40,351 bases of DNA from a virus: positions 1 through 40,351 of IMG/VR virus record IMGVR_UViG_3300034061_001081; one strand, given 5' to 3'. Positions 1-40,318 of this stretch are shown here, in pieces. The translations under genes were made by a program, and so were the position numbers. The notes under the pieces were generated by a model that ran no database searches, had not been told where the DNA came from, and saw only the letters and a program-made list of their open reading frames with translations. Position 1 is the first letter of the stretch; every line of letters starts with the position of its first letter.

Positions 1-1220
1 TTGCCCTTGCTGTGGCCCGTGAGCGTGGCAGGCGCGTTGCTGTTATCTGCCCTAAACCCATCACCACCGACTGGCATAGGCTTGCCAAATACCTTGGCGT
101 TGAAACCTACGAGGTCTGTGGTTGGGAATGGGTCAAGACTGGCAAGAGTAAGATCGGTAGGTGGACAGATGATAAGAAGAAGGAATTCCAATTCATGCTG
201 CCGCCAGATACCGATCTTATCTTCGATGAGGTTCATCGCGCCAAGGCTCAAGGTAACACACAGAATGCCTTTCTGCTCCGCGATGCTGTAGTCCAGAACA
301 TCCCCACCATAGCATTATCGGCTACGATAGCTGATGATCCTACAAAGATGTGGGCATTGGGTCAGTTCCTCGGACTCCATCAAGGTGGTAGGGACTTCTT
401 CCGCTTCCTCAACGCCAACGGATGCTACAACACTCAGTTCGGTATGCAGTTCAAGGGTAACAATAAAATCCTCAAGAACCTTCATGGCCGTATCTTTCCA
501 GATCGCGGCAATCGTCTCAAACCATCTGATGTTGGCAGTGCCTTCCCAGAGACACTGATTCAAGCCAGAGCATTTGATATGGATACTGCCCGTGAAATTG
601 CCAAAGAATACGATGACCTACTAATGAGGGTAGAGCAAATCAAAATGCAGGAGAATGTCGCATCCTCGATGGGTGCAGTCCTCGCTGAGATGACCCGTGC
701 CCGTCAGAAGATCGAACTCTTCAAAGCACCAGCAGTCTGTGCAATGGTAAAGGATTTGATCGAAGAAGGTAATAGTGTCTTCATCGCAGTCAACTTCACA
801 GAGACTCTCAAGTTCATGGAAGAAGAACTCAAGACAACCTGTTCCATTCGCGGAGGTCAGAGTGATATTGTCCGAAGGGGTAACATCGACTCATTCCAGA
901 ATGACAAGTCGAGAGTTATAATCGGCATTATTCAAGCCTGTAGAGAAGGTTTGAACCTGCACGATCTAAACGGCAAATACTCCCGTGTTGCCCTCATCAT
1001 GCCGACCTACTCAGTCTTCGATCTCAAGCAGGTATTGGGTCGAGTCCATCGAGCGGGAGGCAAGTCCAAGTCCATTCAGTATCTCATCTACGCCGCTGGT
1101 GTAGACATCGAAGAGTCAGTATGCAGTTCGCTGGATGCTAAACTCAAGCGCATGGATACCCTCATGGATGGCGAGGTAGATGGAACAATATCAGTAGCAC
1201 CGAAAGAAGTGAATGCCTAA
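1..1220 (+). CDS. SF2 (SNF2-like) helicase, N-terminus outside window
   Basis: Open reading frame already open at the left edge (first full codon at 3), so the start and the Walker A motif lie outside the window. Visible motifs are DEVH (225-236, motif II), LSAT (315-326, motif III), the REGLNLHDL segment (motif V) and QVLGRVHRAGG from about 1029 (motif VI, with the arginine finger). This order is that of superfamily 2 DNA translocases of the SNF2/DEAD type, which phages use in replication or recombination. It is on the + strand, convergent with the 1286-4691 operon, and is followed by a hairpin terminator. Family assignment is firm; which step it serves is not shown. Motif III overlaps one copy of the dispersed palindrome. 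Confidence 0.85.
   Translation, partial: ALAVARERGRRVAVICPKPITTDWHRLAKYLGVETYEVCGWEWVKTGKSKIGRWTDDKKKEFQFMLPPDTDLIFDEVHRAKAQGNTQNAFLLRDAVVQNIPTIALSATIADDPTKMWALGQFLGLHQGGRDFFRFLNANGCYNTQFGMQFKGNNKILKNLHGRIFPDRGNRLKPSDVGSAFPETLIQARAFDMDTAREIAKEYDDLLMRVEQIKMQENVASSMGAVLAEMTRARQKIELFKAPAVCAMVKDLIEEGNSVFIAVNFTETLKFMEEELKTTCSIRGGQSDIVRRGNIDSFQNDKSRVIIGIIQACREGLNLHDLNGKYSRVALIMPTYSVFDLKQVLGRVHRAGGKSKSIQYLIYAAGVDIEESVCSSLDAKLKRMDTLMDGEVDGTISVAPKEVNA
316..329. repeat. Dispersed palindrome, site 1 (centre GCTA)
   Basis: TATCG-GCTA-CGATA inside the helicase, coding the SATI of motif III. It is the only copy whose inner two bases are not both A/T, and its sequence could be explained by the conserved SAT motif. 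It is the weakest member of the set. Confidence 0.4.
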
Positions 1221-1228
1221 AAAAACAA

Positions 1229-1266
1229 ATAGCCCACAGGGAATAAAATCCTTGTGGGCTTTTTTG
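1229..1266. terminator. Bidirectional rho-independent terminator
   Basis: Stem AGCCCACA (1231-1238) pairs with TGTGGGCT (1253-1260), extended by GG/CC with one bulge. It is followed on the + strand by a T run (1261-1265) and on the - strand by the complement of the A run at about 1219-1225. It lies between the convergent helicase gene and the 1286-4691 operon and can serve both. Confidence 0.8.
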
Positions 1267-1270
1267 TTGT

Positions 1271-1284
1271 TATCGTTTCCGATA
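1271..1284 (-). repeat. Dispersed palindrome, site 2 (GAAA on - strand)
   Basis: TATCG-TTTC-CGATA on the + strand, between the terminator T run and the stop codon of the 1286-1573 gene. It lies in the 3' end of the - strand operon, where its sense reading has centre GAAA. Confidence 0.8.
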
Positions 1285-1285
1285 T

Positions 1286-1573
1286 TTACGGAGTGAAGAG
1301 AAGCGGTTGGTTATCTTTCTCTTTCTCTGGTTCATCGAAGCGTTTGCGGAACTGAGCATTCTGATAATACATGAATGCAAGCTCCAGATACTTGATGCAC
1401 TCAAACCCTTCACCCTTGCGGGATTCGGATCGGATGACCATCATGCTTGCTGTATGCAACAGGCTACCCATTGCGTGGACTCGTTCGTTTAGTGTCTCGT
1501 CGCCGGACTTGATGAAAGTAAATGCTTCCATCACCGCTTTCGAGGTTTCGTTTTGTGGTGTTTGTTCTGACAT
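1286..1573 (-). CDS. Probable Acb2/Tad1-hairpin (DUF7681-like) small protein
   Basis: 95 residues. From residue 18 it reads FTF, an SGDETLNERVHAMGSLLH helix, a short turn with ESR, then an ECIKYLELAFMYYQNA helix (59-73). This follows, from memory, the layout of the Acb2/Tad1 hairpin family: an FTYHPP-like start, GDQ..RYE..R, a first helix, a polar turn, then an ALTKLEEAVMWANAAIAR-like second helix. Acb2 proteins bind cyclic di- and trinucleotides and block CBASS signalling. The gene is last in the 4691-1286 operon, 3 nt after the upstream stop. The family match is pattern recognition only and the ligand function is inferred from the family. Residues after about 80 are a polar tail. Confidence 0.55.
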   Translation of the reverse strand: MSEQTPQNETSKAVMEAFTFIKSGDETLNERVHAMGSLLHTASMMVIRSESRKGEGFECIKYLELAFMYYQNAQFRKRFDEPEKEKDNQPLLFTP

Positions 1574-1576
1574 AAA

Positions 1577-2563
1577 TTATTGCTCCTTCAAGAATTTCAT
1601 CCATTCTCCTTCCGCTGGATCAAACCATGACTTGTCGCCAAGGTCGATCAAGAGTTGGTGTTCTTGCACTTCTTCTGGCATTGAGCGGAGGACTTCGGAG
1701 TTGGAGAAGTTACCGACATTGAGGAGAAGGAAACGATGACTCATTGGCTTGTCACCCTTACCCTGCTCGCTACGCACTCGGTTCCTAACCTCAGTCGAGG
1801 ATAGCTTCTCTGTCTTCGCAGCATCAAGAAGTTCCTTTTGTTTCTTGGTGCTTTCATCCCCGAAGTTAGCGTTGCCGATCTCTCGGTAGACTGTGAATGG
1901 CAGCGTAGCGTCACGCATTTCTGCTGTGAATACACGGCAGGCGCGAGCGTAACCAGAGACTGTGCTGTAGCTCTTCTTGAAGTTGGAGCAGAGTTGGTTG
2001 ACTACATCTTCATGCCCCGCATTCTCCAAGGCTACCACCGAATCACCGATGATCCATTGTGCGCCCGACTCCAGAGTAAGACCGAAGGCAAATGCTGCTA
2101 CCCAATCCTTCATCTCTACCTTACCTTTAGGAACGCACTGAGTCATCCCCGATCCGATGTCGAACTTCTGAGTGAATGAGGATAGCTCTAATCCATCCTT
2201 CACACTCTCCACAAGGGCAAGGGATTCGTTGACTGGCTCTTCGATTGTAATATCAATCAATTCTTCAATATTTTCTGGCTCTTCTACTGCTGGCAAGGCG
2301 AGGCGTTCTTCTGCCATCTCCTCGGCCATGTCCAAGTCAGCGGACATCTTCTCATACATTTCCAGCATTTCATCTGGCGCATCGTCGCCAAGGTATTCGT
2401 TCTTCTGAAGTTTGCCCCATGCTTTCTTGATGTGGGCTTCAGTGATGTTGATACCCGGCCATTCGGTTTTAACGAACTCCCCCATGTGACGGAGGTAGGT
2501 TGACAGAGGGACAATGACTCCCTCTTGAGTTGGGCTGAACAATTCTAATTCTTTCTTTTTCAT
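1577..2563 (-). CDS. KorB/ParB-HTH-like DNA-binding protein
   Basis: 328 residues. Residues 1-125 are acidic and helical. Residues 165-267 look like the helix-turn-helix region of KorB/ParB-type proteins: a QWIIGDSVV..EN start, a candidate recognition helix around KKSYSTVSGYARACRVF (196-212), then LPFTVYREIG and a KQKELLDAAKTEKLSSTEVR (241-260) segment like the second helical part of ParB HTH domains. The N-terminal ParB nuclease/CTPase box (GERRxR) is not visible, so it is not a full ParB. It sits between the OB-like protein and the Acb2-like protein. By analogy with KorB of RK2 it could bind the dispersed palindrome; this is inference. It could instead be a replication initiator or primosome-type protein. 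Confidence 0.5.
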   Translation of the reverse strand: MKKKELELFSPTQEGVIVPLSTYLRHMGEFVKTEWPGINITEAHIKKAWGKLQKNEYLGDDAPDEMLEMYEKMSADLDMAEEMAEERLALPAVEEPENIEELIDITIEEPVNESLALVESVKDGLELSSFTQKFDIGSGMTQCVPKGKVEMKDWVAAFAFGLTLESGAQWIIGDSVVALENAGHEDVVNQLCSNFKKSYSTVSGYARACRVFTAEMRDATLPFTVYREIGNANFGDESTKKQKELLDAAKTEKLSSTEVRNRVRSEQGKGDKPMSHRFLLLNVGNFSNSEVLRSMPEEVQEHQLLIDLGDKSWFDPAEGEWMKFLKEQ

Positions 2564-2605: not shown

Positions 2606-3421
2606 TCAATATGGAATGTTGTCTTCGTCGTCGCCTATTGGAGCGTCGAGGTTGAAGTCTTCTGCTGCTTGCTCCACACACTTGGCGAATGGAGTTGTGA
2701 ACCCTTTCTCCAAGTAAAACTGGTAGAGTTTAGTGAGGGCAGGCTTACCGATCTCACCAAGTTTTTCACCCTTGTGTGATCCACTTGGAACAATAACAGA
2801 TGCCCAATCTTTGGGATCAAGTTTCGTTGGCTCTTCCACTTTTGGCTCTTCAACCTTTTCAGTTTTTGTGTAGTAGATGCCCTTTCGGTTGGTTTCAATG
2901 AAGACCGACGAGACATATGCCCGAAGAGTCTCTTCGTCATCCACCACATCCTTGTATGCGTGGCGCACAAGTGAGTCGATATACTGGTGCATCTCTACAA
3001 TATTGTCTATAGCCTTCAAGGGATTATCGGTTACGATAACCTTGGGTGCTGATGTAACACGGGCAGGCTCCTCGCTTGGTAAGTCAAACTCAACCTTACC
3101 AGTAGCTGTGACTTTGATGATGTCACGATCTACCTTGCCATTCTTACCTTCGTAAGTCTCATGCTCCAAGGATACTCCAGTCAGACCATGCTTTCCACGG
3201 ACTGAGGACAGGGTAACTACATTGCCTTTGATGCTTTGCTCCTGCGTATTGTTGAAGAACTTGAGTCCATAGGTTTGCCCGTCGATCTCGATGTCTCCAC
3301 CTTGGATGACAAACTCACCCTTCGGGCCGTTGAATGTCTTAGGTTCCCACAATTTAGTGACTTTGCCAGTCACTCGTTTGATGATGTCTTTCTGTTCGAT
3401 TCCTTCTAATTGGTTACTCAT
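2606..3421 (-). CDS. OB-fold-like protein, possible ssDNA-binding or recombination factor
   Basis: 271 residues. The first 115 residues are beta-rich with repeated short strands (VTGKVTKLWEPKTF, GEFVIQGGDIEIDGQTYGLKFF, NVVTLSSVRGKHGLTGVSLE), compatible with an OB fold. The middle is helical. The C-terminal 65 residues contain VIVPSGSHKGEKLGEI, like the PFGKHKGxxL segment of phage nuclease-associated domains. It lies next to a PD-(D/E)XK nuclease, so a role in recombination or replication is likely, but no named family was recognised with certainty. It starts 8 nt inside the upstream small gene and contains palindrome site 3. Confidence 0.6.
   Translation of the reverse strand: MSNQLEGIEQKDIIKRVTGKVTKLWEPKTFNGPKGEFVIQGGDIEIDGQTYGLKFFNNTQEQSIKGNVVTLSSVRGKHGLTGVSLEHETYEGKNGKVDRDIIKVTATGKVEFDLPSEEPARVTSAPKVIVTDNPLKAIDNIVEMHQYIDSLVRHAYKDVVDDEETLRAYVSSVFIETNRKGIYYTKTEKVEEPKVEEPTKLDPKDWASVIVPSGSHKGEKLGEIGKPALTKLYQFYLEKGFTTPFAKCVEQAAEDFNLDAPIGDDEDNIPY
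3025..3038 (-). repeat. Dispersed palindrome, site 3 (TAAC on - strand)
   Basis: TATCG-GTTA-CGATA (+) inside the OB-like gene, coding IVTD on the - strand. Flanking T and A extend it to 16 bp. Confidence 0.75.
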
Positions 3422-3620
3422 TTGATTTGTTTGCTAATTGTTTGTGGATGGACGCTGCCATCATTGTTATGTCGTGTTCTGGTTCGTTTGCAATTATTGC
3501 GCTGGCTAATTCGTTTGCTTTATGCCGCCAGATTAGTGTCTCGCGGATGTAGTGCTTGAGCATATCAAGAGACTCATCAAGTCCCTCAACATTTTTACTC
3601 AGCAGTTCTTTCATTTCCAT
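3414..3620 (-). CDS. Small hypothetical protein
   Basis: 68 residues, helical and polar, no recognised domain. It overlaps the end of the nuclease gene by about 20-26 nt, depending on whether the first or second Met is used, and overlaps the start of the OB-like gene by 8 nt, so it is probably translated by coupling in the operon. Confidence 0.6.
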   Translation of the reverse strand: MEMKELLSKNVEGLDESLDMLKHYIRETLIWRHKANELASAIIANEPEHDITMMAASIHKQLANKSNE

Positions 3621-4473
3621 AGGTTGCTTTGTAATAGTGGCAGAAGGGTGCTACTGAGCAATAACGCTCGCATCGCATATCCCCGCCGTTTCGTTTTTCG
3701 ATTGAGTGTTTCGCGCCATAGGTAGGAAGTAAGTTTTGTGCTTCCTCAAATGTCTCGCACACTTTTGCTGCTCGTTTGTTCCCGTCCTTCTTGATGGCAA
3801 AGGTATCTGGTTTAGCCCAGCGTTCCTTTGGATCACAACAAGGAATGGTATCGTCTGGCATAGCCGCCGCTGCTTGGTGAAGTTTAACCCTCTCCGTAGC
3901 GTAGCGGACTACCTCTTCGTTATCCCACAATGGTATGTCAACTATGTGGACTGCACACTGGGGATACTCTTTGTCAAACTCGGCCTTGCTCGACTGCCAG
4001 TCCCGAAGGATGGCGACGATCTGACCCTTCTTGACTTCGTATCCATACTCTCTCCAGAGCATGGCATTGAGGTTGATCTGCGCTTCCCACTCAGACTTGC
4101 CGCCGAGTAGGAATGAGAATACCGATGTGACTTTGAAGTCGGAGATTACTTGGTTTCCCGTCTCATACAAGTCAGTCTGACCTGTGAGCGTCCAACCATT
4201 GATCTCTTTGTAGAGACGCTTCTCAGTCATCTCTTCCTCTCCTCCTGCCAATTCAAGAACCTTGTGAACCGACTGACCGAGTAATGCCCACACCCTATCG
4301 GATGCGTCCTCCACGATCTGGTCGGAGTAGCGTTTCTTGAGTTGGTTAATCTTTGGTGGCCCGATCAAGGTAGTCACCGAGATGTCTGCCTTCTTAGTTC
4401 CTGCCATATACCCGTCATGGGATAAGGCGCGGAACATAGGCGCAGGAAGATCAAAGTTATTGGTGATCTTCAT
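3595..4473 (-). CDS. PD-(D/E)XK nuclease, Cas4/RecB-like, with Cys cluster
   Basis: 292 residues. The nuclease core is visible as GQSVH (66-70, His), GQTDLYE (Asp101), VISDFKVT (Asp112, Lys114) and EWEAQINLNA (Gln132), the order seen in RecB/Cas4-type nucleases. The C-terminus has PCCDPKERW (Cys212, Cys213) and GDMRCERYCSVAPFC (Cys268, Cys272, Cys278), which may hold a metal or Fe-S cluster as in Cas4 and AddB. It acts on DNA ends, most likely in phage recombination with the OB-like partner. It starts in a TAATG overlap with the upstream gene. The fold is well supported; the cluster type is inference. Confidence 0.8.
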   Translation of the reverse strand: MKITNNFDLPAPMFRALSHDGYMAGTKKADISVTTLIGPPKINQLKKRYSDQIVEDASDRVWALLGQSVHKVLELAGGEEEMTEKRLYKEINGWTLTGQTDLYETGNQVISDFKVTSVFSFLLGGKSEWEAQINLNAMLWREYGYEVKKGQIVAILRDWQSSKAEFDKEYPQCAVHIVDIPLWDNEEVVRYATERVKLHQAAAAMPDDTIPCCDPKERWAKPDTFAIKKDGNKRAAKVCETFEEAQNLLPTYGAKHSIEKRNGGDMRCERYCSVAPFCHYYKATYGNERTAE

Positions 4474-4731: not shown

Positions 4732-4759
4732 ATAGTATCAAAGTTCCGATAATCGTCAA
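4732..4759 (-). promoter_or_regulatory. Sigma-70-like promoter of the early operon
   Basis: On the - strand: TTGACG, 16 bp, TACTAT. The spacer holds TATCGGAAC, an intact left arm and centre of the dispersed palindrome, followed by TTTGATA (imperfect right arm). A binding protein for the palindrome could therefore act on this promoter. Confidence 0.7.
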
Positions 4760-4790: not shown

Positions 4791-4804
4791 TATCGGAAAC
4801 GATA
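4791..4804 (+). repeat. Dispersed palindrome, site 4 (GAAA on + strand)
   Basis: TATCG-GAAA-CGATA between the late-operon terminator and the early promoter. It is one of only two copies whose A-rich centre is on the strand opposite to neighbouring transcription. Confidence 0.85.
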
Positions 4805-4840
4805 AAAGAAAACGCACCCCAGATTTCTCCGAGGTGCGTT
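4805..4840 (-). terminator. Terminator of the late operon
   Basis: GGTGCGTT (4833-4840) pairs with AACGCACC (4811-4818). Reading on the - strand the stem is followed by TTTTCTTTTATC. It lies 55 bp after the stop of the giant virion gene, and palindrome site 4 begins in its T-rich tail. Confidence 0.75.
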
Positions 4841-4894
4841 CCCTAATGAATAACACGAAACAGCAACAAGCTGCGCAGGTAGACTACATCAGCC

Positions 4895-7800
4895 TCACTC
4901 AATGTCAAGTGGGATTTCCAACCTATCTTGTAGGTCTTCCTTCACCTCTCTACGGATGATACGAATCTCTGTGCTGAGTAGGTCTTGAGCTTCATCAAGT
5001 GGTAACTCATCTAACTCGTCTGATATCTCAGTAATCCTCTCCCGCATTATTGGCCCTGCTTCTCGGACGAACTGCAACTCCTGCTCCTTGGTCATTCTCT
5101 TCCCATTATCCCATGACAGACTTGCATCCCATGCTGGAGGTGTAAGGTTGTTTCTATACAGAACCTCCCATGCAGGGTCTGGTTGCTCAGTAGAAACAAT
5201 ACGACCAACAACACTTGCCAAGCGTCTTCCGAATCCAGACTCTTGCACAGCAGATGGGAACTTGGCATCATCACCAAAGTAGTTCACATCCTTGTTCAAG
5301 AAGTTCACTGATCCGGGCATATCCTTGAAGAAGTTTGAAAGGTAATCTCCACCCACCGCCTTGTCTTCTGTGTAGACTTTGTTGATGTCTCGGAATGCAC
5401 CCGGAACTAACATACGGGATATGATTCCTCCTACAAACTGCGTTCCTTTTTCAACTGGGTTTTGAGATTCTTTGAACTCCAGTAAGTCAGCAAGACCAGT
5501 AAGGAATGATTGGTTGAGAACCGCAACGAATCCAATAGAGAATGGTGCTGTTATTGCAGAAGCCACAAGTTTACCGATGTCTTCAGCTTGAACTTTTTCA
5601 CCCTTCTTCTTCATCGATTTAAGTTCTTCTTGCAACATGGCTCCACTCGCCAACGGAATAACAAGGGGAGTGTAGAGGTATGAGTAGTATGTATCACCAA
5701 CTCTGATTGAATATTTCTGACCTCCCCGCTGCTGCCAGATTTTCTTTTGTCGCGGGTCTTTTGGGCCTTCAGCATAGAACTGAATGTATGGACGCTCTTC
5801 TTGATCCTCTTCATCTCCACCTGTGAGTGCTTGGATAATAAATGGAGCAAGCATAGCGGCTATACCAATCATGCCCTTGATTCCTATCTCATACTCCTTA
5901 TCTGCCCTTCCTTGCGTGAATGGGTCTTTCATCCCACTCTGCTTTGCTCTAATCAATCTGTATTGAGAGAATATTGGAGTGTAGTTAAGAAACTCGTTCG
6001 TCACATTCGCCACAACATTTGTGAATGGGATTACAAATTTAGTTGCTGGATACTTGGCAAGGAGTCCGTTCACAAAGTTAGCAAGCATACCAAATAAGCC
6101 TTGCGGGTCTTGGTTGAATGCAGTTTCAAGTGATGCTTGCTCTGCGATAGCCCTCTTCTCCTCTTCCTTCAATCTCTGCTCACGATAGATTTCATTTGCA
6201 CGGATTATGATCTCTTGGTCTTTCTGTTTGCCTGTAGCCTGCGATGATGCCAACTCCAACTCAGCTTGACGCTTTGCCATGTCAAACCCTTCCCTTGTAA
6301 AATCCGCTGCTCCAAGTTGTGCTGCTTTCGCTTCGTATGCTGCTTCCCTCAAGAACATATCAGTTGCTCGGAGTATTCTCATCAACTGCCTTGGGTTAAC
6401 ATTCTTCAATGCTGTGTTCATCCAATCGGGGAGGAAGTTAATCTTCCCGTCACCAAAATTGGTAAGGTAGTAAACAATCTTAGGAACATTTTCTGGGGTA
6501 GCACCCTCAAGAACATTCGTCTTGGGATACTTAGCCCTCTTCTCATCCTGCATACCAGATGGGTTTAATCCGTTACGCATTACATACAGAAATGAATTCA
6601 CCGCTGGAGACTGCTTACCAGACACCGCAGAATACAATGCCCTCATCATTGGAATGATGGTTTTAGGATTGTATGATGCCCATGTAGCCACATTAAACAT
6701 GAGGTTAAATCCACCAGACAATGCGTTAATCGCAGAGGTGGATACTTGTGAGATAAGTGAAAAATACCAATAGCTTGCAAGAATATCGCCAGTAGTGAAC
6801 TTAGATTTGTTCATCAATGCCCGACCCATCTTCTCTTCTTCGATGCTACGGATAACTCCCGCTGGCAGTTTAGAAATCCTGTCACCCCACTCACGGATGG
6901 TATTTGCAAACTCAGCATCGTATGGCATGAAACCTTTAGGGAAGTCATGGGTTTGTCTGAATGCTTCGTAGACCATCTCCGAATCCAATACATTCATGTT
7001 TGCCATCTCAATCAACTTCTGAAGGATGGTGCGCTGATTGGCCTTTGGTTTTATCTTGTTATCGTCTAATATTTTTTGGGCTGTCTTGATAGCGGCATCC
7101 ACGTTCTCGCTTCTCTGCGCCAGCATTGCCTTCTCCATTTGCTTAGAGATTAGATCAGCTAACTCGGTAGCGTTCTGCTTATCCATTCCAACTTCAGTAA
7201 TGATCCTGCTGATCAAGTTTTGTTTGAAGTTACCATAATCACTCGTCGATAGCTTTGAGATGTCTTTAAGGTTCTTGATTGCTTTGAACTGAGCTTCAGC
7301 CTCCTCTTGAATCTTAGCCGACATGAGAGGCTTTGGCATTACCTTGCCTGTCTTCTCATCGATACGGAATCCAAGTTTGTCTTGTAGGATTTCATTGGTC
7401 TGCTCATTCAGATACTTGTCTGTATCTTGGATGAACTTCTCGATCAGTTCATTCGATGCGCCAGTTCCTTGAAGTTCAGTGCGGATATGCTGCTTGACTG
7501 CTTCTTGTGTTACATCTCTCTGTGATCCAAGGTAGGTGAATAGATCATTGAACTTATAGTCCAAGAAGTCTGCTGAGTCTTTGATAGCCTGTGTCCTTAA
7601 CTTGTCTGCCCATTCATTTGAACGGAGTGCCTTGAAGAGTTCCGCGAAGTCAGCATCGAATGCATCTCTACTCTGATACTTCTCTGCCATCCGGTTTGCC
7701 AGATCGTTCAAGAAGGATTTGTAAGCATTATCGTTTCCGATAACTGCCTTCACCATCTCCAAGTATTTTCCACTACGCTTGCCTGCCTTCTGCTTTTCAA

Positions 7801-10800
7801 TCCCAGCTTGCTGGATTCCCATCTGTTTCGCGGCAGCAGCGAAGGACTGATACATGAACTTAGTGACATTATCGATGGAGAATTCCTTCTTGTTCATTCC
7901 AATCGAAAGGATGTTCTGAACAGTCTGGTCTACCACCATGTTGGCATACTTGTCTTCTTTGGTGTCGAAGAGTCCCGCTGCAAAGTCCAAAAGAATCTGG
8001 CGGGTTGAGTCGGTTTGCTTTTTAGAAACTTCAGCGCGGATTGATTGACGAACCTTCTCTGGATTCCTCTGCGCCATCTTAATCAAGGACGCCGCTTTTC
8101 GGAATACTTCTTGAGTATTGAAGACCTTATCCATCGACTTGCGCCGATCACCTCGGATGGCATTAGCTACTTCATTGAATGATGATCTTGTAACTGCTGA
8201 CAGATTACCCATCGAGGCAATGATGTTTCTCTTGTAGGTATCGATAGCCATTCCTGCACCGACAAGTTTACGGAGAGCAGCGGCAGCTTGAACCATTCTT
8301 CCACTCTCACGCAGGGTAAGAGCTATGTTACGAGCCAATCCCGCTTCTACATCGATAGATTCCAAAGCAAAAGACTCACGGGCAGTTGCCTTCATGTTGG
8401 AGTCCATCACTTCTTTTCTGTAAACAGAAGAGAGTTCATACATCATCTCCATCAATACCAATCTTTCGTATGGAGAAATGTTATATGCTCTCTGTGCGGT
8501 AGCCTCATCCATTCCTGCTAAGTTCTGAGCAACACTAAAGAAGTCAGCGTCTGGATTGTTTCTGAAAATCTTATCCAATGCATTGTTTGCTGCCGTGAAG
8601 GAGTTTGATGTGAATAGATTCGCTGCGATTGAGAACGGAGAAAGTAATGCCTTATTCCACTTCTTATCCTTCTGTGCAGCGCGGGACTGATACGCAGTGT
8701 ATGCCTTGTTATCCTTTGGCTTGAGCATTTCTGCTTGAGCTTCCAAGTCAGAGATCATTCTTGTTGTGATCTTCTGCATCACAGTCTGACTCTTCTTGGA
8801 CATTGGTTCACCTTCTGGAGTTACACCAGCACGGGCGATGATTGGTGAGGTAACATCGAATCTTTGAGAGAGGGGGATTACATTGCCCTGCTCATCGTAA
8901 GTTACTGGGTCTGCGGCAAATCTGCCTTCCAAATCTTTTAGATCGACTCCAAGTTTATTTACTTTGCCGTTTTCTCGTTCAATTATTTGTAAGGCTTTTC
9001 CTCCTGTAAATTCATTTGTTGAATCAATCTCGAAAGAGTCGTCACTGCCAGTATAAAATCGGTTTGCACTATCTGAGAAAATATAATTTTCGCGTTCTCC
9101 CCACATTTGCTTGTCTGAAAGCTGCCAATATATATTTGCTTTATATTCAACCCTCTTCGCTATTTTTTCATCCAAGTTTTGCAACTCATTATTAGATAAC
9201 GAAGAAAGGTAAATAAATACTTTTTTCCCCCGCACAATACCCGCAATCTTCGCCGCCTCATCCACCAACCTCTGTGCAGTCTCCATGTCTCCACTCTCAA
9301 CCGCTGCAAGGTAGTCGGCATCCATCTGTGGAGTTACGCCTGCCTTCGCTTCGATTGCTGGAGTTATCGTTTCCGATACTGCAACTTGTCCACCAGCTTC
9401 TGGGAGTGCGACAGTTTGGTCAGTAGGGAAAACTTCCCTGCGTTTTGAGGCTTTGATTTGTTTGTATTCTGGATTGCTTTCATAAGATGTTATGTCTTGA
9501 TCTATCAATAGATATGGTTCTGCTAAAGATTGTTTCTGTTCATCAGATATTGGTAGTCCATCGATGATCCTCAATGCCGTATCGATTTGGCGATTTGCCA
9601 ATTCAATTTGTTTTGGAGTAATCTGAGAATAAAACTCTGGAGTTTGGGAAACTTTCTGTTTCCTCTTTCCATCTTTGACTATCTTTGACTCACCAGTATT
9701 AAGAACTTCAGCGATATAATTAAGCACTTGGGATTTCTCAATCTCAACTAACGCCTGTGGAACTTGGAAGTCATCTTGCTCTGCGTTAACTTCTTCCTCT
9801 GAAATTTGTGGATCAGATTCAATTATCGCCGCTACTTCTGTGGTAGCTGGTTCTGCTGGAATATTGCGGGTCTGTCCCTTACGAACCCATTCGATGCCAC
9901 TAATTTCGGATATGTTTTGGTTTGGATTTACAGGAACTTGATACTTATTGTTTGTTCCAAACTCACGGAATACAACAGTGCCATCCTCAAGTGAGATTGC
10001 CCCGCGCATTCCCTCAAAGACAAAAGTATCTTTGTCTTTAATCGCATCCGATATTGTTCTGTCTGGTAATGCTGGTTGAACTGATAAGGATTCTTTAGCA
10101 GTTGACTCTGCTTTAGAGTAATCTTTAAACTCGTAGTTAGCCTCACCCTTCACGATACCATACCCATCGAGGATGCTGTTGATGGTATCTTCCATCTTCT
10201 TAACTTCCTTAGTCGAGGTTCCTTTGCCGAGGTAGCGAGTGATAGAGTTACGAGCGAACTGAAGCGCGTTAAGGATGGAGTTCTTCCATGCTATGATAAG
10301 ACCTTTATCTTTGTCAGAGAATGCTTCTTTCTCTGCTGCTCTGATAGCATTCAAGTCTTCGGTGATCTGACCCGTCCTTACACGCTGGATGACCATCCGC
10401 ATGAACTCTTGAGAGAAGGTAAGGTCATCAAGGAGTTTTGTTTTATCGTTTAGATATGCGTTGGATACCCCCGGCAGTGCATTTGGATTCGTGCGCTTTA
10501 CTTCTCTGGCTATATCGGATATTCGCTTTGCAACATAGTCCTGCTCTGTGAGTTTAGGATTCTTGATACCTTTATACTCGTCTTGGATTCCTTGGAACAT
10601 GGAGATATGGATCATCTCCTCTTCCAGTTTCTTTGCTGTAGCCCGTGACTCTTGATCTAATGCGGCATCTCTCGTAGCTACCTGCTGCTCACCTTCGATT
10701 GATATTCCTGCCAACTGATTGATATTTGGAACTACCAAATACTTTTTACCATTAAGGAACACTGCTCGGTATGTGCCAGTATCGGCGGCTACTTGCTTTC

Positions 10801-17060: not shown

Positions 17061-17074
17061 TATCGTTTCCGATA
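17061..17074 (-). repeat. Dispersed palindrome, site 8 (GAAA on - strand)
   Basis: TATCG-TTTC-CGATA (+) filling the 21-bp gap between the 52-residue gene and the gp11-like gene, 6 nt before the start codon of the latter. In RNA it gives a UUAUCG/CGAUAA stem with a GAAA loop. Confidence 0.9.
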
Positions 17075-23379: not shown

Positions 23380-23393
23380 TATCGTTTACGATA
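23380..23393 (-). repeat. Dispersed palindrome, site 11 (TAAA on - strand)
   Basis: TATCG-TTTA-CGATA (+) 8 nt before the metallophosphoesterase ATG. A TTGACT lies upstream on the - strand with 17 nt between it and AACGAT within the site, so the site could lie over a weak promoter core. Confidence 0.9.
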
Positions 23394-24667: not shown

Positions 24668-24681
24668 TATCGTTAACGATA
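24668..24681. repeat. Dispersed palindrome, site 12 (TTAA)
   Basis: TATCG-TTAA-CGATA 5 nt before the start of the beta-helix fibre gene. TTGACC lies 17 nt upstream of the AACGAT in the site (- strand), the same layout as site 11. Confidence 0.9.
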
Positions 24682-24908: not shown

Positions 24909-24909
24909 A

Positions 24910-26082: not shown

Positions 26083-26096
26083 TATCGTTTACGATA
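26083..26096 (-). repeat. Dispersed palindrome, site 13 (TAAA on - strand)
   Basis: TATCG-TTTA-CGATA (+). On the - strand the site ends immediately before the ATG of the Gly-rich fibre and overlaps the last codons and stop of the endolysin-like gene (stop at 26089-26091). Confidence 0.9.
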
Positions 26097-29511: not shown

Positions 29512-29512
29512 A

Positions 29513-29779
29513 TTATGGGTAAGCTATTGTTATGTTTACCAAGTTTGTATCATCAACAGTTGGTGGTTGTGTAGCATAAACGAGAGTCAATGTTGCTACC
29601 ACATCTCCACCATTCAAATATTGAACAGTTGATATATTATTTGTCGAGCCATAGTAACTGATGTCAATCTCGTCATATGGCGGGATGTCAAAACCAGTAA
29701 CTTGTTTCAGTTGCTCGTAGATATTGTAATTCTGCTGATCTGGAGTTAGATTGATGAAGCAAGGTTGAGTGAGTGCCAT
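29513..29779 (-). CDS. Small hypothetical protein
   Basis: 88 residues, beta-rich and acidic, with PCFINLTPDQQNYNIYEQLK and a YGSTNNISTVQYLNGGDVV segment that resembles a small beta domain. No family recognised. It lies 1 bp before the YadA-like fibre, and palindrome site 15 ends 7 nt before its ATG. Confidence 0.6.
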   Translation of the reverse strand: MALTQPCFINLTPDQQNYNIYEQLKQVTGFDIPPYDEIDISYYGSTNNISTVQYLNGGDVVATLTLVYATQPPTVDDTNLVNITIAYP

Positions 29780-29786
29780 AAGATTT

Positions 29787-29800
29787 TATCGGTTACGATA
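29787..29800 (-). repeat. Dispersed palindrome, site 15 (TAAC on - strand)
   Basis: TATCG-GTTA-CGATA (+) in the 22-bp gap between two small genes, 7 nt before an ATG. It is extended by T/A flanks to 16 bp. Confidence 0.9.
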
Positions 29801-29801
29801 A

Positions 29802-30068
29802 TTATGTAACAGGGTTAAGAGCGGCAGACAAAGCCTCGTTAGTGAGGAAGTATTGCTGGTCTTCAGTTTTTTGCACAAAGCAGTTTTGAGTAACTGGGTC
29901 GAGGCCACCAATCGTTGCAAGTCCAACATAGAATTGGTAGAGTTTAGCAGCATCAGTAGCTGCGTCATAGCAACCATAGGAGATTGGATCAATTCCAGCA
30001 GCAGCGGCGATTGTTTGGACGAACGGGTAGGATTTATTGCGGTAGTCGAGAGCGGTGAAGCAAGCCAT
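29802..30068 (-). CDS. Small hypothetical virion-region protein
   Basis: 88 residues with three Cys (MACFTALDYRNKSYPFVQTI, ISYGCYDAATD, TQNCFVQ) and Ala/Tyr-rich helices. No family recognised. It lies between the 204-residue capsid-linked gene and another small gene; all are co-directional with short gaps. It may be a connector or decoration factor. Confidence 0.6.
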   Translation of the reverse strand: MACFTALDYRNKSYPFVQTIAAAAGIDPISYGCYDAATDAAKLYQFYVGLATIGGLDPVTQNCFVQKTEDQQYFLTNEALSAALNPVT

Positions 30069-32382: not shown

Positions 32383-32396
32383 TATCGTAAACGATA
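32383..32396 (+). repeat. Dispersed palindrome, site 16 (TAAA on + strand)
   Basis: TATCG-TAAA-CGATA about 17-30 bp downstream of the predicted capsid transcription start. Its A-rich centre is on the strand opposite to transcription, as at site 4, while 13 others follow transcription. Confidence 0.9.
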
Positions 32397-34062: not shown

Positions 34063-36527
34063 GTTTGTGTTGGTGTCTGCATTGGAGTTTCTTCCATCTC
34101 AACTTCTTCGGTAGCTTCTGGAGTTTCGACTTCCATTTCTTCAGTCTCTTCTTCTTCCATCTCTGGTTGCTCTGCCTTCATCTTACCTTTGGTCTTCTGA
34201 ATCTCAGCACGGGCTTTAGCCTTCTGAAGCGCAAGTTGGGTGATGCCCTGTTCCTTGCGTTGCTCTGTGCGTTGAGCGTGTGAGATAGAAGCCTTGCCGA
34301 TTGCAATGTCAGCGAGCTTCTTCTTGGTATCAATCTCAATGCCAGATTTAGCAGTGAGGTATTGAAGTTTGACATCTTCCTCAGAGTTTGGTTGACCTTG
34401 TTTCTGAGCTTCAGCTTCTGCCATCTGAACATACACTTGCTGGAGTTCGTCGGCCATTCCTTGAGCCTCGTTCATGCCCTGCATGAATTGTTTCAAGAAG
34501 TCCTGCTTCGATGGGTCTTTGCTGATATACTCAACGTGCGCCATGATGTGACCACCCTTGAACTTGATAGCGCGAACTGCTTTCGAGATTTCTGCAAACT
34601 CTGGATTACCCTGCTGCACAGATTGCATATTCATCTGCAACTGCATTGCCAAGTCTTGGAAGTGACCTTGAGCGTGTTCGATGTGCGGATCAGTTGGCAG
34701 CACAGGGAAGTTTGCAGGGTTGACGAACGCATCAGTCATACCAGCATTCTCAAATCCAATGATACGGGTAGTATCGTCGATCTTGCTTGTCTTAGTATTG
34801 CGGTAACGAGCTACGTTATCTCGTCCCGATAGTGCGGCGATTGCATCTTTAACTGCATTCTCTTGCCCTTCGTTTGCTGGAGTAATTGCTGTAATCTGCA
34901 ATAGCTTCTCTGCTGTGATGAGTTTGAATGATGGGCTACCTGCACCATTGATGAGGTTAGAGCGGATGCTTGTGATGTTCTTCCATTGTGCGGCTTCTTT
35001 CGGAGTTCCGAGTTCTTCAAGAATCTCATAGAACTTCTTAACATACTCATATCCATCATCGCTGGATTTTGCATTAACGAAGCGTTTGTAGAGTTGTTTG
35101 AAGTAAAGAGTTTGGCACTCGTTGAATCGACGAATCTGTGTTCCAGATAGTTTTGCTGACTCAGCGGCATCCAGTTCTGCTTCGCCTTTTGTCCTCTGCT
35201 TTCCTCCAGCGGTAGGTGCGTTGATACGATACTGACCCATGCCCCTATACATATCTCCCATGAAGAACTGCATGAAGCTCATGCTTTCTGCTACTGGAAG
35301 TTGGAAGCGGTTTTGGATGAACTTTGCTCCATCTGGCATTACGCTAATAGGCAACCATTCCATCTGCTTCAGCATCTTAGTTGCGTCTGGCCCTTGTCCT
35401 TCGATCATTAACATGGAGTTGAGTCGGACGGCATCTACCAGCGAGTTCATTGTGAAGTCATACTGGCGGCAAGCAACAAAAGCCGATTCTGCTTGGCTCT
35501 TGATGTCTTGGAAGAGTCCGCTACCAACTGAGTCGGTGAGCATATACATGATCTCATCCCATGAGTCGAAGAGTCCAATCTTGAGCATCAAGAACCCGTG
35601 TTGGGTTCGGATGTCATCTTCGCTGATTTTGCCAGCACCTTTGATGTTGGAGTTGATGTAATCGGAGATTGGCTGGTAGTCTTGAAGGATAATCGCTTTA
35701 CTGATTTTGCCGTCAAACTCTCTCCAGTAAACTTCGTAGAGGTCAATCTTCTGGTTGACCGATAGTGACCAGTTGAATCCAGATTCGCTGATCGTGCGGA
35801 AGAAGTCTTCGCGGGTCTTGCGGTGGTTGCTGAATGCACGATGAAATCGGATAGCGTCAATTGCTGCGTCCACATTCCATCCCATTGCTTCTGCTGCTGC
35901 ACGATTCTCGATCTTCTTGTATAGTTCGTATGGAGTCAAACGGACACGGCGAACAAACTCCTCAAGGTTGCAGAAGTCGATCCTAATGTCGTCTGGAAAG
36001 AGAAGGTCGGAGAGGAAAACGTGTTCTGGCATCCATCCCATTGGTGAATCCCACATTCCAATCCCCTTTCCATACAACAACATTTCCTCAAGGTCTTGCT
36101 CTGTATTGTAGAGGTATCCGGGCCATTCTCGGATTGCTTGGTCGAATGCTTGGGAAATGTTCTCTGAGTTAACGAGTCGTTCTTTTTCATTGCCAAATTT
36201 GCTCTTGATCGTGCAGCAAGCCTGCCGTTCCGTAATTACATCGTAGTAACTGGACTTCTGGTTATCTACAATGAATCCAAGTTGTCCGTAGTTTACATCC
36301 GATTGCCAAGGCAGACGCTTCTCAGCAAGTTTGCTATACCCTGTAGGGGGAAACATCTTATACGCCTTATAGATACGGATGCGTTTATTCTCGCGCCCGA
36401 TGTTAGCGAGTCGCAAATGATTTGCTATGTTCCAAGCGTGATTCGCATTGGAGATTCGTGTTTCTGGTGGATTGCCGTCTTGGTCGAGAGTGGCAAGTGA
36501 GAAGTTGTCGTTTCCTACGGATAGCAT
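34059..36527 (-). CDS. Portal protein (head-tail connector, gp8-like)
   Basis: 822 residues. The first half has portal-type segments (HLRLANIGRENKRIRIYKAY, YYDVITERQACCTIKSKFG, MLLYGKGIGMWDSPMGWMPE). The C-terminal third has a long coiled coil (about 690-775, TKKKLADIAIGKASISHAQR) and a very acidic Glu/Thr/Pro tail. The length matches large podovirus portals. It is followed by the scaffold and capsid genes. Palindrome site 17 ends 7 nt before its ATG and no Shine-Dalgarno sequence is visible. The family is recognised by pattern and neighbours. Confidence 0.75.
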   Translation of the reverse strand: MLSVGNDNFSLATLDQDGNPPETRISNANHAWNIANHLRLANIGRENKRIRIYKAYKMFPPTGYSKLAEKRLPWQSDVNYGQLGFIVDNQKSSYYDVITERQACCTIKSKFGNEKERLVNSENISQAFDQAIREWPGYLYNTEQDLEEMLLYGKGIGMWDSPMGWMPEHVFLSDLLFPDDIRIDFCNLEEFVRRVRLTPYELYKKIENRAAAEAMGWNVDAAIDAIRFHRAFSNHRKTREDFFRTISESGFNWSLSVNQKIDLYEVYWREFDGKISKAIILQDYQPISDYINSNIKGAGKISEDDIRTQHGFLMLKIGLFDSWDEIMYMLTDSVGSGLFQDIKSQAESAFVACRQYDFTMNSLVDAVRLNSMLMIEGQGPDATKMLKQMEWLPISVMPDGAKFIQNRFQLPVAESMSFMQFFMGDMYRGMGQYRINAPTAGGKQRTKGEAELDAAESAKLSGTQIRRFNECQTLYFKQLYKRFVNAKSSDDGYEYVKKFYEILEELGTPKEAAQWKNITSIRSNLINGAGSPSFKLITAEKLLQITAITPANEGQENAVKDAIAALSGRDNVARYRNTKTSKIDDTTRIIGFENAGMTDAFVNPANFPVLPTDPHIEHAQGHFQDLAMQLQMNMQSVQQGNPEFAEISKAVRAIKFKGGHIMAHVEYISKDPSKQDFLKQFMQGMNEAQGMADELQQVYVQMAEAEAQKQGQPNSEEDVKLQYLTAKSGIEIDTKKKLADIAIGKASISHAQRTEQRKEQGITQLALQKAKARAEIQKTKGKMKAEQPEMEEEETEEMEVETPEATEEVEMEETPMQTPTQT

Positions 36528-36534: not shown

Positions 36535-36548
36535 TATCGGTTACGATA
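36535..36548 (-). repeat. Dispersed palindrome, site 17 (TAAC on - strand)
   Basis: TATCG-GTTA-CGATA (+) 7 nt before the portal ATG, overlapping the stop codon region (36541) of the upstream 125-residue gene. Confidence 0.9.
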
Positions 36549-36961: not shown

Positions 36962-38805
36962 GAGTTTTTTCTTCCAACAAGGGTATTCAAAAATATGGGA
37001 TGAGGTTTCCAGAAAACTTAGACGAACTTGGAATAGAACTTTATTGCTATGCAATTTCTCATAACAAGTATGGAAAAAAATACTGTATCGAACACAACAT
37101 TAACCTAAATGATTTTAAGTTACTATCTCCATCTGAACATTTCCTTAATGCTGTAAAACTTCAATGGCCGACTGAAGTTTCTATCTATAATCGAGGATAT
37201 GCAAATACTCAGTTGATTAGGACGCTTGATGAGTTGTGTTCCAATACCGACATCTGCTTGGCAGGCGCAGCTTCGATGGGTAAGTCGTTCCCAGTTGCAC
37301 TTTGGGTTTATCTTGATTGGTGTTCTGCCCCGCATTGCACTTCTTCTTGGGTTGCTACTACCACTCTCGGTGCGTCCGAAGATCGTATCTGGGGTATCAT
37401 TTCTAAACTTTGGAAGTGCGCCCGTGTTCAGATTGGCAAACTTGTAGACTATCGCCACATGATTGTTTGGGGCGGGGCATCGAACGACGAGGACAAAGAT
37501 TATCGTAATGCGATAAAAGCTCTCGCCTTTCAGTCTGGTAACGAAGGTCAGAAGGCTATTGATACTACCCGTGGTCGTAAGAATGATCGTGTTCGTTTGG
37601 CACTTGATGAGTTGCCCGAAATGGAACTTGGAGCTATCACGGCGAGAACCAACTTAGCATCCAACAACGACAAGGTGTTTATTGGAATTGGCAACCCATC
37701 TACAGGCGACAATCCACATACCCGCTGGTGTTTACCAAAAGGAGGTTCAAATTTTGATTCCGTGAACCAAAACATGGATAAATGGGAAACCGAAACTGGA
37801 GTTTGCCTGTTCTATAACGGAATGAAGTCACCGAACTTTCAAGCACCAGAAGGCGAACCATCTCCATTCCCGTTTCTAATGGATCGTGAGAAGCAGAGTG
37901 ATATGCTCCGTCTTTCTTATGGCGACGAGAATGCTATCGACTATGTGCGTAATGCTATCGGATGGTGGCCGAAGAGTGGATTTGCTCAGACTATCCTAAC
38001 CGCTGATTTGATTCGTAATGCTGATACCAACGAAGAACCACTTTGGGATTCTGAAGGATTTACTAAGGTAGCAGGGTTTGATACTGCATTTACAGTTGGT
38101 GGTGACCGATGCGTTCTGACTATCGCCAAACTTGGGTATGTGCGCGGGACTCGCAATCGTGTTATGTGGCTTGAGAGTCAGAAGGTAATCCAACTCTCTG
38201 CCAATGCCGCTGCTGAGTTTGAAATTCAACTTGCTACTGAAGTTGTTGCTTTATGTCGCACCGCTGGTGTCCAACCATCCAAGTTTGGTATGGACGTGTC
38301 TGGTGATGGTGGCCGAGTTGGACAGGCTATCATTCGTGAGTGGCTACGTTTTGACGCATCTGGAGCTGCTATCGCTCTTATCTCATCTATGGGTAAACCT
38401 ACTGACCGAATTGCGGCAGAGGTTGATAAACGCCCGTGTAAGGATGTTTATGATAGGTTGGTATCTGAATACTACTACTCAGCTTATCATGCTTTCAAGA
38501 GTCGTGTTATCTTTGGGATTGATCCTGCTTCGGATTTGGCGCGTGAACTTTGCCTGCGCCGATACACGATCAAGTCCAAGAAGATTGCCATTGAGACTAA
38601 AGATGAGCTTAAAGGAAGAACTGGATATTCGCCCGACTTGAGCGATAGCCTAATCTACGCCCTCGAAATGGCGCGGCGTAATGGACTTATTTTTATCGGA
38701 AACGATAAACCAGTTCCAACTAACCGATTCTGGGCGCGTGATGAAAAGCCAGTCGAATCATTCGCTGATGATGACTACGGATCAGACGATAACGGAGATT
38801 GGTAA
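36955..38805 (+). CDS. terL: Terminase large subunit
   Basis: 616 residues. The ATPase has Walker A GAASMGKS (104-111) and Walker B VRLALDE (213-219, Asp218-Glu219). The RNase-H-type nuclease follows with AGFDTAF (Asp376), FGMDVSGDGG (Asp447) and DLSDSLIYAL (Asp564), the usual three acidic residues. It packages DNA into the prohead through the portal. It is transcribed in the opposite direction to the head and tail genes. No small terminase subunit was recognised nearby. Palindrome site 18 lies near its 3' end. Confidence 0.88.
   Translation: MSRVFSSNKGIQKYGMRFPENLDELGIELYCYAISHNKYGKKYCIEHNINLNDFKLLSPSEHFLNAVKLQWPTEVSIYNRGYANTQLIRTLDELCSNTDICLAGAASMGKSFPVALWVYLDWCSAPHCTSSWVATTTLGASEDRIWGIISKLWKCARVQIGKLVDYRHMIVWGGASNDEDKDYRNAIKALAFQSGNEGQKAIDTTRGRKNDRVRLALDELPEMELGAITARTNLASNNDKVFIGIGNPSTGDNPHTRWCLPKGGSNFDSVNQNMDKWETETGVCLFYNGMKSPNFQAPEGEPSPFPFLMDREKQSDMLRLSYGDENAIDYVRNAIGWWPKSGFAQTILTADLIRNADTNEEPLWDSEGFTKVAGFDTAFTVGGDRCVLTIAKLGYVRGTRNRVMWLESQKVIQLSANAAAEFEIQLATEVVALCRTAGVQPSKFGMDVSGDGGRVGQAIIREWLRFDASGAAIALISSMGKPTDRIAAEVDKRPCKDVYDRLVSEYYYSAYHAFKSRVIFGIDPASDLARELCLRRYTIKSKKIAIETKDELKGRTGYSPDLSDSLIYALEMARRNGLIFIGNDKPVPTNRFWARDEKPVESFADDDYGSDDNGDW
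38694..38707 (+). repeat. Dispersed palindrome, site 18 (GAAA on + strand)
   Basis: TATCG-GAAA-CGATA in the terminase gene, coding FIGNDK. On this + strand gene the A-rich centre is again on the sense strand. Confidence 0.8.
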
Positions 38806-39094: not shown

Positions 39095-39315
39095 TCAAGA
39101 ATTCCTTCAAGTTCCAAAGTATTTGCTACTTCTTCTGGAACTACAATACGAATTATCTTCTCTCCGTCAAGATGTCCAAGAGTTTCATTAAGTCGGATGT
39201 CGCTTTTCTTCACCCAACATTGATTAAACTTCTGACGAAACAGAATCTTCTCCGGTGTATTGCTTACTTCAGTTCCCTCGCAGATGATGCGGGATTCAAA
39301 CGTGTTTGTATTCAT
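39091..39315 (-). CDS. Small hypothetical protein
   Basis: 74 residues with a GHLDGEKIIRIVVPEEVANT segment; no known domain recognised. It overlaps the end of the HNH gene by 20 nt, so it is probably co-translated in the XRE-HNH operon. Confidence 0.6.
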   Translation of the reverse strand: MNTNTFESRIICEGTEVSNTPEKILFRQKFNQCWVKKSDIRLNETLGHLDGEKIIRIVVPEEVANTLELEGILD

Positions 39316-39616
39316 AAATTAAATAATTGTTCTCTCTGGCCCATGCAGGATTGTCGTGGATTTTATTATGGCAGGGACGGCAAACCGCCATGAATGTTGC
39401 CATGTTGCAAAGGTTCTTACCTCGCTTTGCCTTATGATGAATGTCAGTAGCTGGACAACCGCACACTTCACAATTCGGTTTAAGGTTGAAATAAAGTGTC
39501 CGTGCCACTTTATACTTTTCATTCTCTTCACGCTTGCGGTCACTAAATACCTTTAGTTTTCCTCCGCGCTTTTTGAAACCCGTTTTTGCTTTAAGTGGGG
39601 TTTTTCTTCGTAGCAT
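39296..39616 (-). CDS. HNH endonuclease
   Basis: 106 residues. The start MLRRKTPLKAKTGFKKRG is typical of small phage HNH proteins. CEVCGC (Cys49, Cys52) and CRPCH (Cys79, Cys82) are the zinc pairs; TDIHHKAKRG (His60, His61) and the downstream NKIH (His87) form the beta-beta-alpha-metal site. Such enzymes can nick DNA in packaging or spread as homing nucleases. Here it lies within an XRE operon, not next to a terminase start. It overlaps the XRE gene by 64 nt in another frame. Confidence 0.8.
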   Translation of the reverse strand: MLRRKTPLKAKTGFKKRGGKLKVFSDRKREENEKYKVARTLYFNLKPNCEVCGCPATDIHHKAKRGKNLCNMATFMAVCRPCHNKIHDNPAWARENNYLIYEYKHV

Positions 39617-39864
39617 AGTGCGATTACTTTCTCTACTTGTTCTTTCTTTAGGATGCTCTTGGAGTTTACTTCGATCTGGTTGATGAGTGATCCAGTCACG
39701 CCGATCTTCTCACCAAGTTCTCGGACAGTCAACCGCAACATCCTGCGAGTCTCACGCAATTGGGTGGCGAAAGTTTTCCTTCCGATAGAACGAACCATGC
39801 GTGATTGCTCGTAGGCAGTCATGCAGGACTCATATGCGTCTTCTAAAGGATGTCTCATTTCCAT
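39553..39864 (-). CDS. XRE-family regulator
   Basis: 103 residues from the ATG at 39862-39864, or 101 from the ATG at 39856-39858. The latter fits better if the transcript starts near 39860, as predicted from the promoter. Residues about 33-70 (FATQLRETRRMLRLTVRELG, then VTGSLINQIEVNSKS) form a Cro/C1-type helix-turn-helix. It is divergent from the + strand gene at 39921, with both -35 boxes back to back, so it probably controls its own and the neighbour's transcription. It is one candidate for binding the dispersed palindrome, although no copy lies in this divergent gap. Confidence 0.75.
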   Translation of the reverse strand: MEMRHPLEDAYESCMTAYEQSRMVRSIGRKTFATQLRETRRMLRLTVRELGEKIGVTGSLINQIEVNSKSILKKEQVEKVIALCYEEKPHLKQKRVSKSAEEN

Positions 39865-39866
39865 AA

Positions 39867-39895
39867 AAAATAAACCAAGAGTATTGACAAGTCAA
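39867..39895 (-). promoter_or_regulatory. Promoter of the XRE operon
   Basis: On the - strand TTGACT, 17 bp, TATTTT. Its -35 hexamer abuts the -35 of the opposite promoter. The -10 is 2 nt from the first ATG of the XRE gene, so the message would be leaderless or start at the second ATG (39858). Confidence 0.65.
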
Positions 39896-39912
39896 CACTT
39901 TTTTGTTACTAT
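39884..39912 (+). promoter_or_regulatory. Promoter of the 39921 gene
   Basis: TTGACA (39884-39889), 17 bp, TACTAT (39907-39912). The ATG at 39921 is 8 nt after the -10, so the message is likely leaderless. TTGAC-AA-GTCAA at 39884-39895 is a palindrome covering both -35 boxes and could be an XRE operator. Confidence 0.75.
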
Positions 39913-39920
39913 GATTGCTT

Positions 39921-40289
39921 ATGGATAACACTAACAACATCAAAGACAACGCAGAAAAAATATTAGTTGAAACAAGGAGAACTGTCATGGTTACCAATAT
40001 GTCTTTAGCCACAGCTTTAGGCACTCCTTTCATGGCTACCTACGAAAATGATGACGGCATTCTTGTCATGGCACTCAAGCCTAATAACACCGCAATTATT
40101 GCGGCAACTGGCAATAACAGTAATACTGTCATTAAGGCAGATATTATTATTACAACGGATGGTATCGGTGAACGCCGCACCACATTCCAGTGCGAGACAG
40201 AAGAAGATGCCAGTCAAATCTGGGACTTACTCAATGATAGAATGTTTGAGTGGTCGAAAGGTGAAGTTGAGCAGGTTGAATTGGACTGA
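39921..40289 (+). CDS. Hypothetical protein divergent from XRE
   Basis: 122 residues from the ATG at 39921, chosen because it lies at the expected transcription start; a TTG at 39915 is possible but less likely. A helical start (MDNTNNIKDNAEKILVETRR) is followed by a beta-rich middle and an acidic helical end (EEDASQIWDLLNDRMFEWSK). No family recognised. It is divergent from the XRE gene and followed 1 bp later by palindrome site 19. It may be an early or control gene product. Confidence 0.65.
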   Translation: MDNTNNIKDNAEKILVETRRTVMVTNMSLATALGTPFMATYENDDGILVMALKPNNTAIIAATGNNSNTVIKADIIITTDGIGERRTTFQCETEEDASQIWDLLNDRMFEWSKGEVEQVELD

Positions 40290-40318
40290 TTATCGTAACC
40301 GATAATACGGAGTATAAT
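40290..40318 (+). promoter_or_regulatory. Possible promoter overlapping palindrome site 19
   Basis: TATAAT at 40313-40318 with a weak -35 (TTATCG, 40290-40295) at a 17-bp distance. The -35 lies within the palindrome, so a bound protein would block or replace -35 recognition. The gene it serves lies beyond the window edge. Confidence 0.5.
40291..40304 (+). repeat. Dispersed palindrome, site 19 (TAAC on + strand)
   Basis: TATCG-TAAC-CGATA immediately after the stop of the 39921 gene and upstream of TATAAT. Flanked by T and A (16-bp match). Confidence 0.9.

Follow-up and report, generated by a model that had tools for sequence, protein, structure and literature searches.

What reads a palindrome that recurs throughout the genome of an uncultured freshwater phage, and to what end? 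The question arises from IMG/VR record IMGVR_UViG_3300034061_001081, a linear fragment that was analysed over its entire length of 40,351 nucleotides (hereafter the window) and in which the 14-bp palindrome TATCG-KNNM-CGATA is present 19 times. On balance we think it probable that these sites form an array bound by the phage's own ParB/Noc-type protein, a putative DNA-binding product of 328 amino acids (aa); the purpose of the array is less certain.

A dispersed and exact palindrome

A pattern search of the window with TATCGKNNMCGATA found the motif at 19 positions and nowhere else, and these are the positions given in the first-pass annotation, with none missed and none wrong. They are listed here without strand.

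316–329: TATCGGCTACGATA, within the SF2 helicase gene
1271–1284: TATCGTTTCCGATA, between convergent genes, past a terminator-like hairpin of the helicase gene
3025–3038: TATCGGTTACGATA, within a 271-aa gene
4791–4804: TATCGGAAACGATA, between a terminator hairpin (4804–4841) and the promoter of an exonuclease operon, a place kept across the phage family
7729–7742: within a 2768-aa gene, sense reading IGND
9365–9378: within the 2768-aa gene, sense reading SETI
12442–12455: within the 2768-aa gene, sense reading IGND
17061–17074: 6 bp upstream of the ATG of a 320-aa gene
19388–19401: within a 614-aa gene, retained in 16 of 16 contigs
22094–22107: within a 139-aa gene
23380–23393: 8 bp upstream of an ATG at 23371
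24668–24681: 5 bp upstream of an ATG at 24662
26083–26096: abutting an ATG at 26082 and overlapping the preceding stop
27525–27538: within a 707-aa gene
29787–29800: 7 bp upstream of an ATG at 29779
32383–32396: in a 325-bp gap separating two large genes
36535–36548: 7 bp upstream of the ATG at 36527 (822-aa gene)
38694–38707: within the terminase gene
40291–40304: past a 122-aa gene, directly upstream of a TATAAT

The excess over chance claimed in that annotation was borne out by dinucleotide-preserving shuffles, which gave a mean of 0.01 and a maximum of 1 occurrence against the 19 observed. Its description of the centre is likewise accurate, with K at position 6 and M at position 9 in 19/19 copies and A or T at the inner two bases in 18/19, as is its count of ten copies between genes or overlapping a gene edge, compared with 3.9% non-coding DNA (binomial P ~5e-9; non-coding fraction and gene edges from simple longest-ORF script calls, ORF being open reading frame). 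The remaining nine are intragenic, a single 8.3-kb ORF accounting for three. Only two copies with one mismatch occur in the window, and the motif is therefore nearly all-or-none.

Comparison with related contigs (the set G001–G022, most of them fragments) extends the motif slightly. The full logo over 12 contigs is WTTATCGKWWMCGATAAW, with T at −1 and A at +1 (about 75%) and avoidance of G at +2 and C at −2. Half-sites are paired at a gap of exactly 4 in 357 cases (18 contigs), at a gap of 5 in 14 and at any other gap in 0–4. Spacing between sites is evener than random in most contigs, at about one site per 2 kb (coefficient of variation 0.39–0.58; p<=0.001 in the window, G007, G010, G018, G019 and G020). 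Position 6 is almost always G or T, and position 9 is the complement of position 6. Since G and T present a common keto group in the major groove, this pattern fits the trace expected of a symmetric protein reading duplex DNA.

Conservation and distribution

Close relatives, where the first-pass annotation had suggested looking, carry the motif as well. A terminase search yielded 284 related viral stretches, and all 80 of those fetched for a motif count contained it (365 copies in 876 kb), while 17 long related contigs hold 9–31 sites apiece. The INPHARED phage collection contained no relative, either by window DNA or by the terminase, 822-aa or 328-aa protein. The motif is a mark of a large uncultured phage family.

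Selection on the motif acts at the DNA level, because 19 copies are found where 0.01 are expected, the intragenic ones fall in two reading frames of genes for unrelated proteins, and individual copies persist. For instance, the copy in the terminase gene is present in 81/81 close relatives, with most of its codons showing no synonymous change, and those in the DnaB gene and the 614-aa gene are held in 14/14 and 16/16 contigs, respectively. Positions also turn over: depending on the contig, the SF2 helicase gene has its copy at one of four places. The distant relative G015 (48.8 kb) has terminase parts at both contig ends, and hence looks complete and circularly permuted; it has nine sites, all within called ORFs.

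When IMG/VR was scanned with one exact 16-bp variant, the matches listed came almost solely from this phage family, and unrelated viral contigs among them had one or two motif copies each. The same exact 16-mer in GTDB gave, among the matches listed, scattered taxa with one match per contig, and a degenerate 16-mer was at chance level in ~590 genomes of Verrucomicrobiota, Pseudomonadota and Bacteroidota. These counts answer the annotation's concern about host density as far as the sampled genomes go, and they bear on the idea that a host protein, exploited by the phages, occupies the sites. Such a binder is conceivable. However, the chance-level occurrence in sampled bacteria, the solitary GTDB matches and the one or two copies in unrelated viral contigs all speak against it; we rejected a host motif on the first of these grounds and regard a host binder as improbable.

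A probable site in duplex DNA

Apart from the two adjacent bases, the flanks of ~170 independent site classes carry no further signal, nor any promoter element at a set distance, and a composite of palindrome and promoter was rejected for lack of such an element. Copies before genes mostly end 5–8 bp from the ATG and have a sense-strand centre that is mostly KAAM. In free intergenic DNA the orientation of the centre flips, so that the KAAM bias probably stems from codon and leader constraints.

Alternatively, the motif might act as a hairpin in RNA or a single strand, with translation control as one conceivable use. It could form a stem of 5–6 bp with a loop of 4 nt, many copies stand 5–8 nt upstream of AUG with the biased sense centre near genes, and early copies make up the apex of long leader hairpins (z ~-8). 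Against this, ~350 sites show no compensatory stem changes, position 9 is limited to the complement of position 6, and one early hairpin retains its stem yet has a GAAA apex without the motif. Together with the orientation flips, the missing covariation led us to reject a hairpin as the general function, and we rate it very improbable. The palindrome acts like a stand-alone dyad site in double-stranded DNA.

The leader hairpins themselves constitute a multi-copy RNA family in the early regions of L086, L091, L366 and L370 (G003, G008, G019 and G018, respectively). Their pattern is GUArNCAGACACUC, a variable stem, the apex and GCAGUCUG..UAC, each genome having several of them 5' of early genes, with a folding z of ~-6 to -9. 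The apex is formed by the TATCG motif (loop 3, 4 or 5) in most copies and by a GAAA tetraloop in one. Rfam gave no match for this family.

A candidate binding protein

1577–2563, minus strand: candidate site-binding protein of 328 aa, with a predicted ParB/Noc-type DNA-binding domain (residues ~120–270) and a C-terminal beta domain

When 94 gene families were tested as profiles against G015, only a handful proved common to it, namely terminase, portal, exonuclease, HNH, a few structural or unknown proteins and the 328-aa protein. The last is the only shared family in which a helix-turn-helix (HTH) was seen, predicted by AlphaFold at residues 185–194 and 199–211. The G015 homologue has no N-terminal region at all. 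Overall identity is 28%, but in both proteins the predicted recognition helix begins with the same six residues, SYSTVS. Foldseek searches with the whole model and with the domain alone (pLDDT 90, pTM 0.85) both gave Noc, Spo0J and ParB as top PDB matches (probability 0.97–0.99), a likeness that is suggestive and not significant by E-value. The ParB/Srx CTPase boxes (GxRR-type) were not found in the protein by pattern. The protein is encoded in 58 viral loci (51–95% identity, plus G015); the motif is present in 58/58 of these and is the most frequent palindrome in 56/58. Because it is shared with G015, has a conserved predicted recognition helix and contains a domain that is predicted to resemble Noc/ParB, the 328-aa protein is the best candidate for binding the palindrome.

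A second putative DNA-binding protein of the window was considered for the same role.

39553–39864, minus strand: HTH_3-type regulator of 103 aa (HTH_3-like match)
39884–39895, no strand: private palindrome TTGACAAGTCAA, overlapping the -35 of the HTH_3 gene

Its HTH_3-like match and its occurrence in 12/12 long contigs first compared and 9/12 further ones would suit a binder of the TATCG palindrome. Its own promoter, however, has no TATCG site and holds a different conserved palindrome, TTGACNNGTCAA, of which each of the 17/17 contigs with the gene has a single copy and G015 none; this palindrome, at 39884–39895, is probably the private operator of the HTH_3 gene. Moreover, G015 keeps its nine sites without an HTH_3 homologue. 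The private palindrome and G015 led us to reject the HTH_3 protein, and it is extremely unlikely to be the binder.

A 253-aa ParB-like protein (L086; G003 29154–29915) was rejected as the family-wide binder since it is present in only three contigs. This protein gives a weak PHROG ParB-like match, and the contigs concerned (G003, G008 and G009) are the three with the densest early sites.

The operon of the candidate binder

The gene for the 328-aa protein shares an operon with two others.

2606–3421, minus strand: 271-aa operon neighbour, OB-fold/single-stranded-DNA-binding-like by inspection, no family match; contains the site at 3025
3595–4473, minus strand: exonuclease (phrog_2139), in the same operon as the 271-aa and 328-aa genes
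4732–4759, minus strand: promoter of the exonuclease/271-aa/ParB-like operon, TTGACG-N16-TACTAT
4746–4752, minus strand: half-site TTATCGG in the spacer of the operon promoter

The 271-aa product is, by inspection, probably a single-stranded-DNA-binding protein, and its company with the exonuclease points to replication and recombination as the setting of the operon. A half-site occupies the same promoter place in 10/11 genomes and is degenerate in G011. Its position in the spacer points to possible autoregulation of the operon.

Possible transcriptional control

The same sites could serve as operators or roadblocks of a phage repressor in global transcription control, as do KorB operators on RK2 or the stoperators of cluster A phages; the repressor may be the ParB/Noc-type protein itself or another. 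The share of sites at gene edges (10/19, against 3.9% non-coding DNA) and the many copies 5–8 bp 5' of start codons would be expected of operators, as would the half-site within the operon promoter with a full site just upstream of it and the TATAAT just downstream of the site at 40291. However, no promoter element lies at a fixed distance from the sites, their spacing is even, and half of those in the window plus all nine of G015 are inside ORFs. Furthermore, L5 stoperators are reported to act in an orientation-dependent way (PMC9283540), which a palindrome cannot do. The likely lifestyle also counts against a repressor of this kind: a search of the phage found no tyrosine integrase (serine integrase and plasmid prophages were not searched for), and GTDB species genomes contained no relative of the phage, for which reasons lysogeny seems unlikely. 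We therefore consider control of transcription a rather unlikely function of the array.

Comparison with known systems

A text search of the open-access literature did not find the motif, in agreement with the first-pass annotation, whose author knew of no description. The dispersed-operator idea put forward there holds in part. The sites do seem to be of a real, dispersed, protein-binding type, and the parallel with KorB is apt because KorB is a ParB-family protein and the candidate binder has a predicted ParB/Noc-type DNA-binding domain. The parallel with stoperators is weak, since the sites are unoriented palindromes, many of them deep inside genes, with no fixed promoter element and in phages for which lysogeny is unlikely.

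Among the systems nearest to the array is Noc, of Bacillus nucleoid occlusion, with its sites (NBS). The NBS is a 16-bp dyad, TATTTCCCGGGAAATA (PMC7383237), and Noc is the best fold match of the DNA-binding domain of the 328-aa protein. As in an NBS array, many exact palindromes are dispersed over the replicon, intragenic ones included. The site sequences are not alike, however, the phage density is one per ~2 kb, and Noc carries an N-terminal membrane helix as well as a ParB/Srx CTPase domain, whereas no CTPase boxes were found in the phage protein. The parS site is also a 16-bp palindrome, TGTTTCACGTGAAACA, which two HTH domains recognise (PMC7383237), and the DNA-binding domain of ParB has a fold similar to that predicted here. 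It lies near the origin and acts with ParA and CTP, while the phage sites span the whole genome. A search of 10 phage contigs, the terminase-to-terminase contig G015 among them, found no ParA (PF13614), and a partition system was rejected on this basis.

ParB and KorB load at their sites and slide as CTP clamps (PMC11790492, PMC7053999), and KorB combines clamp sliding with KorA for long-range silencing (PMC11790492). The RK2 system resembles the phage array in its ParB-family protein, a global regulator, with several dispersed palindromic operators, and differs from it in that no CTPase domain was recognised in the phage protein and in that the phage sites are not tied to promoters. In L5 and other cluster A phages, more than 20 repressor sites are found throughout the genome, some in short intergenic gaps. 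These stoperators are 13-bp asymmetric sequences that are read by a monomer and have an orientation correlated with transcription (PMC9283540), whereas the phage sites have perfect dyad arms, are often intragenic and flip in free intergenic DNA. From these comparisons we propose that the phage protein is a ParB/Noc type without CTPase, with an NBS/parS-like array, and the array may point to an undescribed virus-wide system of site and protein.

A proposed role in genome organisation

We favour genome organisation or marking, together with autoregulation, over transcription control, a host binder, an RNA function or the HTH_3 protein, although these readings are not mutually exclusive. The sequences establish the sites, how exact, conserved and evenly spaced they are, and that they depend neither on promoters nor on reading frame; binding and dimerisation by the 328-aa protein, and the role of the complex, we infer. 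A dimer would most likely bind WTTATCGKWWMCGATAAW, that is, the 16-bp dyad with a flanking W. Given that no CTPase domain was recognised and no ParA found, the protein would be expected to remain at its bound site and not to load and slide. At one site per ~2 kb it would decorate the entire phage genome, where protein and array may organise or mark the DNA in replication and recombination while the protein autoregulates its own operon.

Several observations weigh against this proposal. The Foldseek E-values are only 0.2–0.3, with a TM-score of 0.57 on the domain, and the 328-aa protein has no significant sequence match in Pfam, PHROGs or the PDB. It was singled out for its shared presence and its predicted HTH, and the true binder could be a different, uncharacterised protein of the phage or one of the host. 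Gap-5 and gap-3 variants in some early hairpins are unexpected under strict dimer binding, and the enrichment at gene edges and the sites beside TTGACT-like sequences are compatible with transcriptional control as well.

Dispersed sequence-specific sites over whole replicons are familiar from bacterial chromosomes (NBS and SlmA sites) and plasmids (KorB operators), but we know of no regular site array across lytic-looking phages. Only tentatively, and with some doubt, do we suggest that this probably virulent family combines a CTPase-less ParB/Noc-type protein with a regular genome-wide array in the absence of ParA. If so, it would represent a viral system for organising a nucleoid or marking a genome, with many fixed sites in place of clamp sliding, and the array would possibly shield or steer phage DNA for the phage exonuclease and recombination machinery. 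Should the assignment hold, the site and the candidate protein, both small and defined, would offer a clean test of a ParB/Noc-type DNA-binding domain without CTP and ParA, and would show if phages themselves organise or mark their DNA.

Other features of the contigs

Most genes in the window and in G001–G022 have A-rich leaders with no Shine-Dalgarno sequence, and promoters look sigma-70-like (TTGACT-N17-TATTTT), features that give a hint of host identity. Of 12 contigs, 10 encode a small protein bearing a zinc ribbon of the NrdR type (L086; G003 34840–35097). The 2768-aa ORF that houses three sites (4895–13201) has no Pfam or PHROG match; its counterparts measure 2327–2486 aa in relatives and 1277 aa in G015.

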